DNA of 32,562 bases from Synechococcales cyanobacterium CRU_2_2 (lineage in GTDB: Bacteria > Cyanobacteriota > Cyanobacteriia > PCC-9006 > JAAUQQ01). The DNA lies in the NCBI GenBank assembly GCA_012034805.1, contig JAAUOP010000046.1, positions 1 through 32,562 of the forward strand, read 5' to 3'. The notes beneath the pieces are model-generated. The model had not been told where the DNA came from, made no database searches, and saw nothing but the letters and a program-made list of their open reading frames with translations. A program made the position numbers and the translations under genes. Below, piece by piece: positions 27,373-32,562 of this stretch; position 1 is the first letter of the stretch, and each line of letters begins with the position of its first letter.

Positions 27373-28440
27373 TCAGGCAGCTTTGAGATCGCGACGACGA
27401 CGCCCGACAAATCCAACCAGGGCCAAGAAACTTGCGATCGCTCCCCCCGCTTCCGGTACCGCCTGGGGCGGCTGAGGTTGGCTGGCCTCCAAGGCCAACA
27501 GGGCCTGAGCCGCGATAATTTGATGGCCCTTGGTTGTCGGATGTAAATCATCCCAGAACAGCGAGGTTTCACCACAGGCCGCCAGGGTTGCCGGATCGGA
27601 GATGGTGTTGTCTGCAAGTTGAGCTAACGTAAAACAGGGCACATCGGCTTGGGTAAAGCCAAAAGCCCCAGGGTTCTGTTGAACTTGAGTAAAAACGGTG
27701 GCGACATCAAAGGGAACAACCTGAATGTCGCGGTGGGCGAGCTCAAATTGATTCAGCACCGTCGTCAGCCCCTGGTTATGGGCTGCGGTCAGAGCACTTA
27801 GGGCATCTGGCGCAATGGCTTGGCCCAGGGGTATGTTGCCGAGGTCGGGTAAATTGGCCACGAGGAAATTGCGCGCACCGCTGGCATACAGGTCGTTCAA
27901 AGCATTGCTGATATTCGTCAAGGGAATCTGCGGATTGGTTTGGCCGCCACCGAGATAATCATTCGCCCCGGCCCAATAGATGTAGAGCGCATCCTCTGTT
28001 GCACTCGGCCCAGCGGCATTGATAAAGCTTTGATAGGCCCCTAACTCGGTGGCGACACCGGGCAGCGCAGGGCTTCCGGCGGGCTTGAGCGGGTTGTCAT
28101 CGTTGGAATTGGTGTCGTCGGTGTTGGCTCCGGCGATCGCAAAGTTAATTCCCTGACTCGCCGACAGTGGATTCGCCTGAGCCGCCAAAATCCGCGCGGG
28201 CGAGAGGCCTAACTCATCGGCCAAGTACTCAACCCAAACGGGGCCATTGCTCGTACGACCGTCTACGTAGGGCGGGGGTGGGAATGTTCCTGCCGAAAGA
28301 TCAAACAAGTTGCCGGGGTCCGAAAGGCTGTCCCCAAACACGTAGAGGCGATCGAAATTCAGTGAAGCGGCTTCGCTGGGCAAGGCGGGGACGAGCAGCA
28401 GAACCGTCAAGCCAGTCAAAAGGGCAGGGGCTGATTTCAT
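27373..28440 (-). CDS. SGNH/GDSL hydrolase with PEP-CTERM-like sorting tail
   Basis: Signal peptide; YVFGDSLSDPGN; YIYWAGANDYL; LFWDDLHPTTKGHQIIA; C-terminal VPEAGGAIASFLALVGFVGRRRR. Confidence 0.93.
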   Translation of the reverse strand: MKSAPALLTGLTVLLLVPALPSEAASLNFDRLYVFGDSLSDPGNLFDLSAGTFPPPPYVDGRTSNGPVWVEYLADELGLSPARILAAQANPLSASQGINFAIAGANTDDTNSNDDNPLKPAGSPALPGVATELGAYQSFINAAGPSATEDALYIYWAGANDYLGGGQTNPQIPLTNISNALNDLYASGARNFLVANLPDLGNIPLGQAIAPDALSALTAAHNQGLTTVLNQFELAHRDIQVVPFDVATVFTQVQQNPGAFGFTQADVPCFTLAQLADNTISDPATLAACGETSLFWDDLHPTTKGHQIIAAQALLALEASQPQPPQAVPEAGGAIASFLALVGFVGRRRRDLKAA

Positions 28441-28782: not shown

Positions 28783-29073
28783 CTAGGGCTTAATCAGCTT
28801 GATGATCTCCTTAAGGGCAATCACCATCCATAACAGGCAGCTAATCGTCAGTGCTGTAATGCCATCCCAATCCAGCAGCTCCTCTAGGGCTTGGTAATGA
28901 ACGGAAACATTCATCAGCACTTTGAGCAAGGCAACAACGCCTGCCAGTGAGAACCCGGCAGTGAGAATAATTTTTTCGTCTGTCAGCCCTGTCGCTCGAC
29001 GTTGCTGATGAGCAAAGGCAGAGACCACAACAACTGCAAGGAACCAGAAAAACCAGTAAAGACGGGGAGACAA
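28783..29073 (-). CDS. Small multi-pass membrane protein (96 aa) at the end of the CHAT gene string
   Basis: Hydrophobic segments LYWFFWFLAVVVVSAFA, LTAGFSLAGVVALLKVLM, ITALTISCLLWMVIAL; starts 11 nt after the protein A stop. Confidence 0.65.
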   Translation of the reverse strand: MSPRLYWFFWFLAVVVVSAFAHQQRRATGLTDEKIILTAGFSLAGVVALLKVLMNVSVHYQALEELLDWDGITALTISCLLWMVIALKEIIKLIKP

Positions 29074-29084
29074 GACGCGATGAC

Positions 29085-29801
29085 CTAAGGGTTACGATTG
29101 GAGTGAGTTGTTTTAGGCGCAACATAGAAGCCCGCCCAGCAGCCGACGATCGCGCCCAGCAACGCGCCCAGGAGTTGACTTACGCCACCCCCAAAGAGTT
29201 GGACAACAGCGCCGCCTAAAAAGGCTCCACCGGCGGCCATGATGGCGATGCGATCGAAGTTTTCCCAAGCAGATGCTTTGGCGGAGCCACGCTGCCGCTG
29301 CGCCAAACGATGCACATCTTGTTGCCTGGAATCAAGGCTCGGCTCGGCTTCCAGATGCGTGCTGTCGCTGGGGCTGGGTTGGGGGACGACGATGGGCTGA
29401 GGCACAACCGCTTGTGGCGCGTTCTGTTCGGGACTGTTTCCGTTAGATTGCATCGAGCTAGATTGCGTCGAGCGGTTGGCTTCGCCAAGCGCCGAAGGGT
29501 TGCCGATCTGCGGGGCGTCTAAGGTCTTTTCGGGGGCTCTTTCGAGGCCTACTTCGGGGGCGTATAGGCGCTTGTTGCGATCGCCTGACTCACGCCGCAG
29601 CATGTTCCGCGCGGTGCGATAGCAGGCCTGAAGCTGGGGGTGCGTTTGGGCGATCGCGCTCAATTCCCCAGCTTGACTTTCTAAATCATTTTCCAAGGCC
29701 CAAATATCCCCAGGCAGCTCAACGTTTTCTTCGCGGCAGATTTCGAGGGCGATCGCAAAGGCCTCAACGGCGAGTTGTTCGAGGGGGGTAAGGGATGACA
29801 T
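29085..29801 (-). CDS. Protein A: shared N-terminal domain plus linker plus glycine-zipper transmembrane C-terminus
   Basis: MSSLTPLEQLAVEAFAIALEICREENVELPGDIWALENDLESQAGELSAIAQTHPQLQACYRTARNMLRRESGD.. and C-terminal IAIMAAGGAFLGGAVVQLFGGGVSQLLGALLGAIVGCWAGFYV. Confidence 0.85.
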   Translation of the reverse strand: MSSLTPLEQLAVEAFAIALEICREENVELPGDIWALENDLESQAGELSAIAQTHPQLQACYRTARNMLRRESGDRNKRLYAPEVGLERAPEKTLDAPQIGNPSALGEANRSTQSSSMQSNGNSPEQNAPQAVVPQPIVVPQPSPSDSTHLEAEPSLDSRQQDVHRLAQRQRGSAKASAWENFDRIAIMAAGGAFLGGAVVQLFGGGVSQLLGALLGAIVGCWAGFYVAPKTTHSNRNP

Positions 29802-29804
29802 GGT

Positions 29805-29867
29805 TTAGGCTCCGAATCCCGTGAACATGAACCAACATTTAGATTGCGTTTCTATTTTCATCATCAT
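29805..29867 (-). pseudogene. Residual C-terminal tail of a second CHAT gene (or 20-aa leader ORF) directly upstream of protein A
   Basis: Encodes MMMKIETQSKCWFMFTGFGA* then ACC ATG TCA TCC; the intact CHAT gene ends WAAFTLAGLGT* then ACC ATG TCA TCC. Confidence 0.6.
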
Positions 29868-29889
29868 AAGGCTCACCGCTTAACACGAA

Positions 29890-30321
29890 TCATCCAGGTG
29901 AAACCACGAGGGGAGCAACTTCCGCACCGAGCCGGAGAAAGTCTTTGGCGTTGAGCGTCAGCAGTCGGCTCGCCCCGGCCTTGAGGGCGGCTTGGGCGAT
30001 GAGGGCATCAAAGACAATGCCCCCCGTCAACTGAAGATTCACAAGACGATGAATGGCAGCCTCGTAATCTTGGGGCTCCAAAACAATCTTTTCTAGGATT
30101 TGAAGGTTACCGAGGAGTGCGTTGACCTCCCTGGGCTGGAGTTTGGGTATTCGGGGAAGACGAGTGAGCACAGAGTAAAGCTCGGCCAGAGTGTGCGTTG
30201 AGACAAAACCCAGGGTGGTGGCGTTGTGCACTTTTTCTAGCCAGCTCAGGCAAAAGATGTGTTGGGGATGATCTTCAAGGAGCGCAGCAACTAGGGTAGA
30301 AGTATCAAAGAGTGTTCTCAT
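29890..30321 (-). CDS. PIN-domain (VapC-like) ribonuclease
   Basis: MRTLFDTSTLVAALLEDHPQHIFCLSWLEKVHN..FVSTHTLAELYSVLTRLP..LQLTGGIVFDALIAQAALKAGASRLLTLNAKDFLRL. Confidence 0.93.
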   Translation of the reverse strand: MRTLFDTSTLVAALLEDHPQHIFCLSWLEKVHNATTLGFVSTHTLAELYSVLTRLPRIPKLQPREVNALLGNLQILEKIVLEPQDYEAAIHRLVNLQLTGGIVFDALIAQAALKAGASRLLTLNAKDFLRLGAEVAPLVVSPG

Positions 30322-30779
30322 GATTCAGCGATACCCAGCCCCATTAGGGTATTTAAGCGGCTGTCGCGATCGCCTTGCACGAGATGATCCCAGTCGGCAT
30401 TGGCCTGATGAACTGCTCTCACGACCCAGAATGCGCCAACCCGTTTCAGGTTGCGCAGGTCTCCTTCTGAGGGGTTTGTCGGGGTTTGGGTCTGGACGAT
30501 TGGGGCTGGGACGGTTTGCCTGGGGGCTGCATCGCTCCGGGGTAGGAACCTGTCACCGTCGCCCGAAGCTCGTCTCAACACGTTTCTGGCATTGCGATAA
30601 AACGCGTTGAACTGGGGGTGTGTTTGGGCGATCGCACCCAATTCCCCCACATGCTGCTCTAAGTTATTTTTCAACACCCTGATTTCCTCGGGCAGCTCAA
30701 TGCCTTCCTCGTGACACGTGTCTAGGGCTGCTGCGAAGGCGTTCAAAGCGAGTTGTTCGAGCGGACTAAGGGATGACAT
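30318..30779 (-). CDS. Protein B: shared N-terminal domain protein between CHAT and PIN genes
   Basis: MSSLSPLEQLALNAFAAALDTCHEEGIELPEEIRVLKNNLEQHVGELGAIAQTHPQFNAFYRNARNVLRRASGD..; ATGA overlap with the PIN gene; 3 nt after the CHAT stop. Confidence 0.85.
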   Translation of the reverse strand: MSSLSPLEQLALNAFAAALDTCHEEGIELPEEIRVLKNNLEQHVGELGAIAQTHPQFNAFYRNARNVLRRASGDGDRFLPRSDAAPRQTVPAPIVQTQTPTNPSEGDLRNLKRVGAFWVVRAVHQANADWDHLVQGDRDSRLNTLMGLGIAES

Positions 30780-30782
30780 GGT

Positions 30783-32562
30783 TTAGGTTCCGAGCCCCGC
30801 GAGCGTAAACGCGGCCCAGTAATAGGGGTGATCGTAACGGATCCGTGCTGGCTCCATTGTATCAAGGTCGTCCCGTTCCTCCGTCAGGAATTCCCGCACA
30901 TTTGCCGGTACATCGAGGCTGAGCCAGCGATCGTAGCGGGTTTTGAGTTGGGCCACGGTGAGGGTCCGCAGGGTTTGGCGGCTGTGGTGCAGGGCTGCGA
31001 TCGGCCCGAGATCAAGCTGGTCATAGAATTCAGCCATAAAGACCATGCTGGCCGCAGATTCCACGGTCCAGAGCGTACTGAGGACGTGGGGAATGCCTTG
31101 GGCCAGGAAGGCACTGGTGAGGCCGACGTATTCGGCGGTGATGGTTTGGTTGCCAGTCAGGGCGCTTTCGCAGCTGGCCAGGGTGACGAGGCTGTAGGTG
31201 TTCAGCGAAATTTGGCGCAGGTCTTGGACGGTGAGGGTGTCGTGACCTTTGAGGGCAAGGGCGGATTGTTTGGGGTCGTCGAAGTTGTAGCCAGCGTGGC
31301 CGTTGAAGTGGAGGATTTGGTGGGGTTGCCCGAGGACTTCGCTGACGTGGGCGGCTGTGGCTTCGGGAGCAGGAATCGTTTTAACGGTATGGGTGGTGCT
31401 GAGGAGCTGGTTGATCAGGTGGGTTTCGGCCTCGGCGTGGTACAGCGCACCCAAACCATCGTGGTCGGGCGCACTAATCGTCAAAGCCATCCGTAGGGAC
31501 GAACCGCCATTCGTTTGGCTCTTGGTTTGACCCAGGCCCGACGGGCGCAGGGTTTGGCCAAGCCGAATGCTGGGCAGAACGGTGGTTTGGTATTCGGGAA
31601 AAGCGTGGTGGAGCGGCAAGCGATGCAAGTCACGGTGGGGGACGAGGGTGAGATGGGTGATTTCGGCGGGAAGGCGGGCTTTGAGCGCGTCGAGTTGGAG
31701 GATTTGGGCGAGGCGGTTGAGTTTGTTCGGGAGCTCAGCGTACCAGACCGATTTTTTCGGGTTGCTGGTTTGGGTTTTGCTTTTGCTTTTGTCGATGTGG
31801 GCTACGTAGTTTTGGTTCCAGGTTTGGAGCCAGCCTTCGAGTTCGGTGATTTGTTTGAGGGCGGTTTGGGTGTCGGGGGCATGGAGGATTTGGAGGTCGA
31901 TATCTCTTTCGGCTCCGGCCCCGGCGGGCGAGGGAAGCAGGAGGAAGGTGGTGAGGGCGTTGGGGCTTTGGTGCCAGTAGAGGATGGCTTGGTGGGGTTG
32001 GAGTTGGAGTTGGGGGGCGTTGGTTTGGGCGTTGGTTTGGGCTTCGGCCAGGAGCCAGGTTATGAGGGCGTTTTTGTCGGTTTCGGCGGTTTCGAGGGCG
32101 GCTAGGTTTTTGCCTTGGCGAATGAGGAGATCGACGGTGAGTTGGTTGAAGTTGGGCAGGGTGCGGGCTAGGCGGTTGCGCTGGTCTTCGGTTGTGGCGG
32201 CATCTAGAATTCGAGCACGCAGGGCGGTGCCTTGGCGCAGGAGGGCGAAGATGGGTTCGTCGTGGGGGAGGCCGAGGGCGAGGTGGGTGGTGATCAGGCT
32301 TTGGAGGCTTTTTAGCTCGTCTTGGAGGTGGCCTGTTGCTCGGAAAATTTGGCTGGCCTGATCGTAAGCATCGCGGGCGGCGCGCCAGTAGGGGCGGGGG
32401 CTGGCTTGAAGGTTGGCGTGGTTCCAGTGGGCGTTGCCGAGTTGGTGTTGCAAGAAGGCGTGGCCGTAGGTGGGGGCGGGGCATTGGTGCAGTCCTTCTT
32501 GGAGGCTGGCGAGTTGGCCGGGGTAGCCGCGTTGGTTTAGGTGAGGATTTTTGAAGCGGAGG
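30783..32562 (-). CDS. TPR/CHAT domain (caspase-like) protease, N-terminus beyond window edge
   Basis: Catalytic-type motifs ILHFNGHAGYN (His) and YSLVTLASCESALTG (Cys); SAFLAQGIPHVLSTLWTV; PYYWAAFTLAGLG. The frame stays open to 32562 (..LRFKNPHLNQRGYPGQLASLQEGLHQC..), so the listed 32453 start is an artefact. Confidence 0.93.
   Translation of the reverse strand, partial: LRFKNPHLNQRGYPGQLASLQEGLHQCPAPTYGHAFLQHQLGNAHWNHANLQASPRPYWRAARDAYDQASQIFRATGHLQDELKSLQSLITTHLALGLPHDEPIFALLRQGTALRARILDAATTEDQRNRLARTLPNFNQLTVDLLIRQGKNLAALETAETDKNALITWLLAEAQTNAQTNAPQLQLQPHQAILYWHQSPNALTTFLLLPSPAGAGAERDIDLQILHAPDTQTALKQITELEGWLQTWNQNYVAHIDKSKSKTQTSNPKKSVWYAELPNKLNRLAQILQLDALKARLPAEITHLTLVPHRDLHRLPLHHAFPEYQTTVLPSIRLGQTLRPSGLGQTKSQTNGGSSLRMALTISAPDHDGLGALYHAEAETHLINQLLSTTHTVKTIPAPEATAAHVSEVLGQPHQILHFNGHAGYNFDDPKQSALALKGHDTLTVQDLRQISLNTYSLVTLASCESALTGNQTITAEYVGLTSAFLAQGIPHVLSTLWTVESAASMVFMAEFYDQLDLGPIAALHHSRQTLRTLTVAQLKTRYDRWLSLDVPANVREFLTEERDDLDTMEPARIRYDHPYYWAAFTLAGLGT

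Follow-up and report, generated by a model that had tools for sequence, protein, structure and literature searches.

The stretch of DNA analysed here (hereafter the window) comprises 32,562 nt, positions 1-32,562 of contig JAAUOP010000046.1 from Synechococcales cyanobacterium CRU_2_2 (GCA_012034805.1). It contains a cluster of minus-strand genes in which a CHAT protease gene is followed by the gene for protein B, a PIN/VapC-type toxin gene, the gene for protein A and the gene for a small membrane protein (Table 1). A preliminary description of this DNA had placed A and B at the positions listed, and both are real ORFs there. The gene for B begins directly behind the CHAT stop codon, and the PIN gene lies between A and B, an arrangement that bears on how the A/B pair is to be interpreted. 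The CHAT protein, whose N-terminal part lies beyond the contig end, has both the catalytic His (HFNGH) and the catalytic Cys (ASCES), and its closest solved relatives are Csx29/TPR-CHAT proteins. The window also carries, on the minus strand, a GDSL lipase gene with a PEP-CTERM-like sorting signal at its end (27373-28440).

Table 1. Features of the CHAT locus in the window
Feature	Position	Strand	Remarks
CHAT protease gene	30783..32561	-	5′ end beyond contig end; Pfam CHAT 1.3e-39
Protein B, 153 aa	30318..30779	-	DOM, linker and VapB-type antitoxin tail (putative)
DOM of B, residues 1-78	30546..30779	-	Predicted helices 6-25, 31-37, 40-53, 55-71
Toxin-binding (antitoxin) tail of B, residues 101-148 (putative)	30336..30479	-	Profile match to PIN-clade antitoxin tails
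PIN/VapC-type toxin gene	29890..30321	-	4-nt overlap with B; Pfam PIN 3.9e-14
Protein A, 238 aa	29085..29801	-	DOM, long linker and glycine-rich membrane hairpin (putative)
DOM of A, residues 1-78	29568..29801	-	Final motif GDRNKR
Two hydrophobic segments of A, residues 185-203 and 210-228	29118..29249	-	Glycine-zipper-like; hydropathy
96-aa partner of A, three predicted TM segments	28783..29073	-	Hydropathy
Direct repeat copy 1 (A side)	29565..29832	.	Domain and ~30 nt upstream resembling CHAT 3′ end
Direct repeat copy 2 (B side)	30543..30810	.	Domain and true CHAT 3′ end

We use DOM as a label for the N-terminal segment common to A and B. The hand count given in the preliminary description, 49 identities among the first 74 residues, proved exact, and BLASTP aligned the two proteins over residues 1-99 only (89.7 bits, E = 2e-27); together, these values rule out chance similarity. 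The two proteins had also been called unrelated past the domain, and indeed the similarity ends at approximately residues 95-99, with the C-terminal regions scoring no better than shuffled sequence. Within the domain, the genes match at 58, 62 and 38 of 74 first, second and third codon positions, respectively, indicating that the protein was conserved while silent sites drifted. At the DNA level the domain is a 268-nt direct repeat (71 %) that extends ~30 nt beyond each ATG on the 5′ side; beside B, these extra nucleotides are the end of the CHAT gene, and beside A they are a trace of it. These limits suggest that a segment reaching from the 3′ end of the CHAT gene across DOM was duplicated and that the copies came to bear different payloads. 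The CHAT remnant upstream of A is weakly visible in the DNA repeat and did not reach significance with a protein profile. Two adjacent DOM copies occur in the window and at one other locus, L062; the L062 pair is 92 % identical, while A and B share 63 %, as do A and L063.

DOM spans about 75 residues, is non-enzymatic and lies at the N-terminus in almost all members. It had been described as mostly helical and of no recognised family, and both statements held: AlphaFold2, with 45 window and locus sequences as input, predicted four helices (Table 1), and DOM returned no significant match in Pfam, NCBIfam or PADLOC. Searches of A, B and 45 members of the DOM alignment against Pfam-A likewise gave no significant match, and a PDB profile search with DOM produced only weak matches, to coiled-coil and designed helical proteins. 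The AlphaFold2 model is of moderate quality (pLDDT 76, pTM 0.62), with low confidence after residue 78, and a Foldseek comparison of this model with the PDB found no solved relative below E = 1. A Death-like fold was rejected on the lack of such a match, to the extent that a moderate-quality model permits, and the idea of a phage or plasmid domain was rejected as searches of plasmid, phage and viral-contig sequences returned no DOM match. The outcomes named in the preliminary description as contrary to its reading, an unrelated known domain or invariant C-termini, were not encountered. We conclude that DOM is a small, previously unnamed helical module of cyanobacteria.

At E ≤ 0.05, a profile built from three sequences gave matches, many of them weak, in 62 of the 390 cyanobacterial genomes searched; with one built from 14 sequences, 70 of 389 genomes had a match at E ≤ 0.01. 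Matches to residues 31-65 only, in proteins of 460-520 aa, look like helical chance matches and were discarded. A first scan of the genome contigs with DOM alone had returned no matches, probably because the domain is too divergent for exact patterns; the route through CHAT succeeded.

The protease previously noticed beside A and B turned out to be a constant neighbour of DOM proteins, a link found from both directions. Among the DOM loci that had no part in building the profile (L067-L105), 20 have a CHAT gene as their immediate 5′ neighbour in the same orientation, and four that lack an intact CHAT (L070, L078, L082, L090) still show the decayed 3′ end of one at this position. Conversely, 79 cyanobacterial CHAT loci were drawn with a CHAT alignment and without reference to DOM, and a DOM gene was present at 59 of them. 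This gene had the orientation of the CHAT gene in every case and was, with few exceptions, its immediate 3′ neighbour. The proportion holds for this CHAT subfamily and not for all CHATs, since the alignment was built from DOM-linked CHATs. The His and Cys columns are invariant in an alignment of 14 DOM-linked CHATs. Looking for DOM on the CHAT partner itself, as had been proposed, revealed a natural fusion at L064 (852-3440), where TPR-like repeats, CHAT and a C-terminal DOM are combined in one 862-aa protein. No such copy was found on the other CHATs examined, which end at the CHAT domain, and contact between DOM and CHAT therefore cannot be simple like-with-like. The genes examined beside CHAT included no Cas7-11 (gRAMP), Csx30 or other Cas genes. 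A second CHAT type of ~1260-1320 aa, mostly without a DOM gene, was also seen (e.g. L145, L147 and L178, among L116-L194).

As the preliminary description anticipated, the C-termini are variable: DOM relatives bear many different ones, with no fewer than five classes of payload, of which the window holds two. The profile matches can be grouped as follows. In group 1, DOM precedes an antitoxin-like tail and a toxin gene follows (B in the window), and in group 2 it precedes a glycine-zipper hairpin, followed by a gene for a transmembrane (TM) protein of ~95 aa (A in the window). Group 3 proteins carry a winged-helix-like region (MarR_2 match 1.2e-5, below cut-off) and are followed by a TM protein of ~235 aa; group 4 consists of short DOM proteins followed by a ~470-aa protein with hydrophobic C-terminal segments; and in group 5 DOM is joined to a further C-terminal domain, the next gene encoding a ~180-aa TM protein. 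Group 6 comprises stand-alone DOM proteins of ~130 aa without CHAT, and group 7 is the C-terminal DOM of the L064 TPR-CHAT protein. The TM descriptions of groups outside the window were read off the sequences by eye.

The ~470-aa partner (L123, 6320-7741; relatives include L038, L039, L047, L077, L084 and L119) starts with (I)YPTxDLFLYDL..GLG, has hydrophobic C-terminal segments, usually lies right behind a short DOM gene and has no Pfam match. The orphan ~130-aa proteins (L037, L040-L046, L048-L061) are conserved in cyanobacteria, most of them with the tail SNPLKRLFGRG, and none was found to have a CHAT neighbour. A second short motif further along, ILxAxDxVxAAK, is common to the orphans and to most CHAT-linked members, which supports their common descent.

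The PIN protein encoded behind B has the acidic residues D6, E47, D105 and D127, and it matches NCBIfam TIGR00028 below the cut-off (2e-10). In other cyanobacteria, most relatives of this PIN protein (39-53 % identical) are immediately preceded by an ~80-115-aa antitoxin, and these antitoxins present several different-looking N-termini and one tail, GILVxET...DINALIxExREERI. A direct search with the tail of B alone found nothing significant, and the route via the PIN relatives was needed: a tail profile made from 20 of their antitoxins matched B residues 101-148 co-linearly at 11.9 bits, a modest score, which none of 5000 shuffled tails reached (best 7.1 bits). Since the tail fits the PIN-clade antitoxin profile and the PIN gene follows, overlapping, B is in all appearance a DOM-antitoxin for the adjoining PIN gene. 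It has no N-terminal DNA-binding domain of the VapB type; DOM is in that place.

The same replacement is clearer at L062, where YafQ and RelE genes come after the two DOM genes. The last 42 residues of the second DOM protein are 58-79 % identical to the best-matching stand-alone antitoxin tails, found across cyanobacteria and mostly beside RelE genes, and DOM here apparently stands in place of the N-terminus of a RelE antitoxin. At L118 and L141 a DOM-STAS-like protein is encoded before a PIN gene (Pfam; the L118 PIN match is below cut-off), L183 being a near-identical copy of L141 with the same order and L118 having a similar stand-alone STAS-like ORF nearby. A ParE-like gene is present at the DOM locus L070. 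Judged by sequence, the proteins to which DOM is fused include no fewer than three kinds of antitoxins or antitoxin-like proteins. At L157 (5415-6574), beside CHAT, a DOM gene is followed by a HEPN gene, a further toxin-like partner.

The tail of A matched Pfam glycine-zipper models weakly, below cut-off, and the same type of tail occurs at L080-L083, L099 and L160. TM partners of ~95 aa lie 3′ of DOM-glycine-zipper genes at L080-L083, L092, L099, L160 and L180. A is accordingly described here as DOM with a putative glycine-zipper membrane hairpin, paired with the predicted three-TM protein of 96 aa, and the pair recurs.

Just past the domain, an Arg-x-Lys motif was detected in most CHAT-type members. 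R-x-K/R falls within 24 residues of the invariant Tyr in 79 of the 100 CHAT-type (non-orphan) DOM proteins (approximately 23 expected from shuffled tails), and in 73 of these the distance to that Tyr is 13, 14 or 16 residues; a stricter pattern gives 71/100 against 5.6 expected, counts that overstate the number of independent observations because the sequences are not phylogenetically independent and include near-duplicates such as L068/L189. The motif sits right after the last predicted helix, where model confidence drops. It was absent from all 22 orphan DOMs and present in only 6 of the 15 proteins with winged-helix-like payloads, most of which have no adjacent CHAT; in B, it is shifted and imperfect (SGDGDRFLP). 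The motif could be a cut site, but it could also be a docking site or just the end of the fold.

The DOM family, its link with CHAT, the diversity of payloads and the antitoxin tail of B, all read from sequence, argue strongly for DOM being an adaptor to which payloads are attached. We further consider it fairly probable that DOM ties swappable payloads to TPR-CHAT and that CHAT, once triggered, cuts near R-x-K and releases a toxin or membrane effector, leading to arrest or death; for the cutting of DOM proteins by CHAT taken by itself, which is proposed by analogy, the chances appear about even. In this mechanism, we infer that DOM binds physically to the TPR-CHAT protease encoded directly upstream and thereby links the payloads to it. 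The VapB antitoxin tail of B would keep the adjoining PIN toxin inactive, and the glycine-zipper hairpin of A would act together with the 96-aa membrane protein. On sensing a threat, TPR-CHAT would cut the DOM proteins at or near Arg-x-Lys, parting payload from adaptor, so that the antitoxin portion of B would fail and the PIN toxin act, while the membrane hairpin of A would be freed; growth arrest or cell death would be the outcome. This suggests that the protease governs when toxins and membrane effectors are released. Cutting at the linker is proposed by analogy with Csx29, a TPR-CHAT protein that cleaves its inhibitor Csx30 within a flexible loop (PMC10028731), and orthocaspases cleave after positively charged residues (PMC6426788). 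A more specific version, a CHAT-controlled toxin-antitoxin system in which the adaptor replaces antitoxin N-termini (VapB, RelE-type, STAS-like) and the R-x-K cut is a suicide switch for swappable cargo, is put forward tentatively, at slightly below an even chance.

Rather less likely, DOM would serve docking or assembly only, bringing payloads to TPR-CHAT, and activation would come from conformational change or from Lon/Clp and not from cutting by CHAT. Such a role fits a small helical terminal domain common to neighbouring proteins, in line with the EAD (effector-associated domain) principle (PMC7159879), as well as the DOM-CHAT fusion at L064 and the lack of a clean R-x-K in B; against it speak the constant distance at which R-x-K recurs in proteins with unrelated payloads, its absence from CHAT-less orphans and the invariant His/Cys dyad of DOM-linked CHATs. 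An improbable reading is that CHAT itself is the killer and that DOM proteins are regulators that silence it, the attached antitoxin or membrane part stabilising or localising the complex. One DOM gene directly behind CHAT at most loci is what an inhibitor-protease pair would look like, yet the payloads are accompanied by membrane proteins or by toxin genes that are complete, for which a pure inhibitor would have no use, and DOM families without CHAT exist. It is highly improbable that the toxin-antitoxin link is incidental, DOM having recombined onto antitoxins in place of their DNA-binding part with no functional tie to CHAT, for although DOM was copied by segmental duplication in the window and some DOM-toxin loci have no CHAT (L069, L070), the remains of a CHAT 3′ end are still seen at L070, and fusions to antitoxins are found repeatedly beside CHAT, with toxins of different families (window, L062, L118, L141, L183 and L157).

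The preferred reading, a DOM adaptor that hands payloads to a cutting CHAT, would have DOM and CHAT work like an EAD system or Craspase. EADs are small, non-enzymatic, mostly helical terminal domains, copies of which are found on different effectors of the same operon (PMC7159879, PMC8195603). The preliminary description had likened DOM to such a domain, and the likeness stands as regards small size, terminal position, several payloads and adjacent copies; it fails as regards a copy on the CHAT core, which only L064 has, and DOM is not classed as an EAD because such a copy is not general. In EAD systems, as in those with DOM, proteases are common and cyanobacteria are frequent hosts (Kaur et al. 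2020, PMC7159879; 2021, PMC8195603). In contrast to EADs, DOM has no Pfam-A model match (Pfam-A may not hold all 12 EADs), the core component of its system (TPR-CHAT) normally has no copy, and its payloads include antitoxins of toxin-antitoxin pairs. In its main text, the 2020 EAD paper (PMC7159879) makes no use of the word 'CHAT'. Csx29, which acts with Csx30 and CASP-sigma in type III-E CRISPR (PMC10028731), belongs to the same broad TPR-CHAT family as the CHAT of the window; its substrate is Csx30, whereas the candidate substrates in the DOM system are antitoxins or membrane proteins with DOM.

Type II toxin-antitoxin systems (VapBC, RelBE, DinJ-YafQ) resemble the loci described here in their antitoxin-then-toxin order, overlapping genes, toxin-binding tail and PIN/RelE/YafQ toxins, but here DOM replaces the N-terminal domain of the antitoxin and the pair lies directly behind CHAT. 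HetF cleaves the inhibitor PatU3. It is a cyanobacterial CHAT protein that has TPR and TM regions and is a putative protease, in these respects like the CHAT considered here, but differs in its role in the cell division and heterocyst development of heterocystous cyanobacteria (PMC8406250). The EACC1-caspase system is reminiscent of the present one in being a protease module of two genes in which a glycine-rich TM segment and variable fusion domains occur (PMC7159879); there, the variable domains are on the caspase, whereas in the DOM system they are on the adaptor protein. A Pfam search found no EACC1 match in A or B.

No description of a link between CHAT and antitoxins was found in the literature searched, which leaves out many subscription papers. 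CHAT proteases abound in cyanobacteria, and substrates are known for few of them. DOM yields defined candidate substrates for CHAT together with a candidate cut site, and a search rule, namely DOM 3′ of CHAT. If the proposed mechanism is true, it would join caspase-like bacterial immunity to the toxin-antitoxin field via a single mechanism, removal of a dedicated antitoxin by an equally dedicated protease, and would show, for these loci, what frees toxins from antitoxins under attack, a question of long standing. The present analysis adds to the preliminary description the probable identity of B as a PIN antitoxin, the reading of A as a hairpin paired with the 96-aa ORF, and the Arg-x-Lys motif.

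Finally, compared with L116, L117 (5431-5616) appears to be a deletion derivative in which the start of a DOM gene is joined to the end of a toxin gene.
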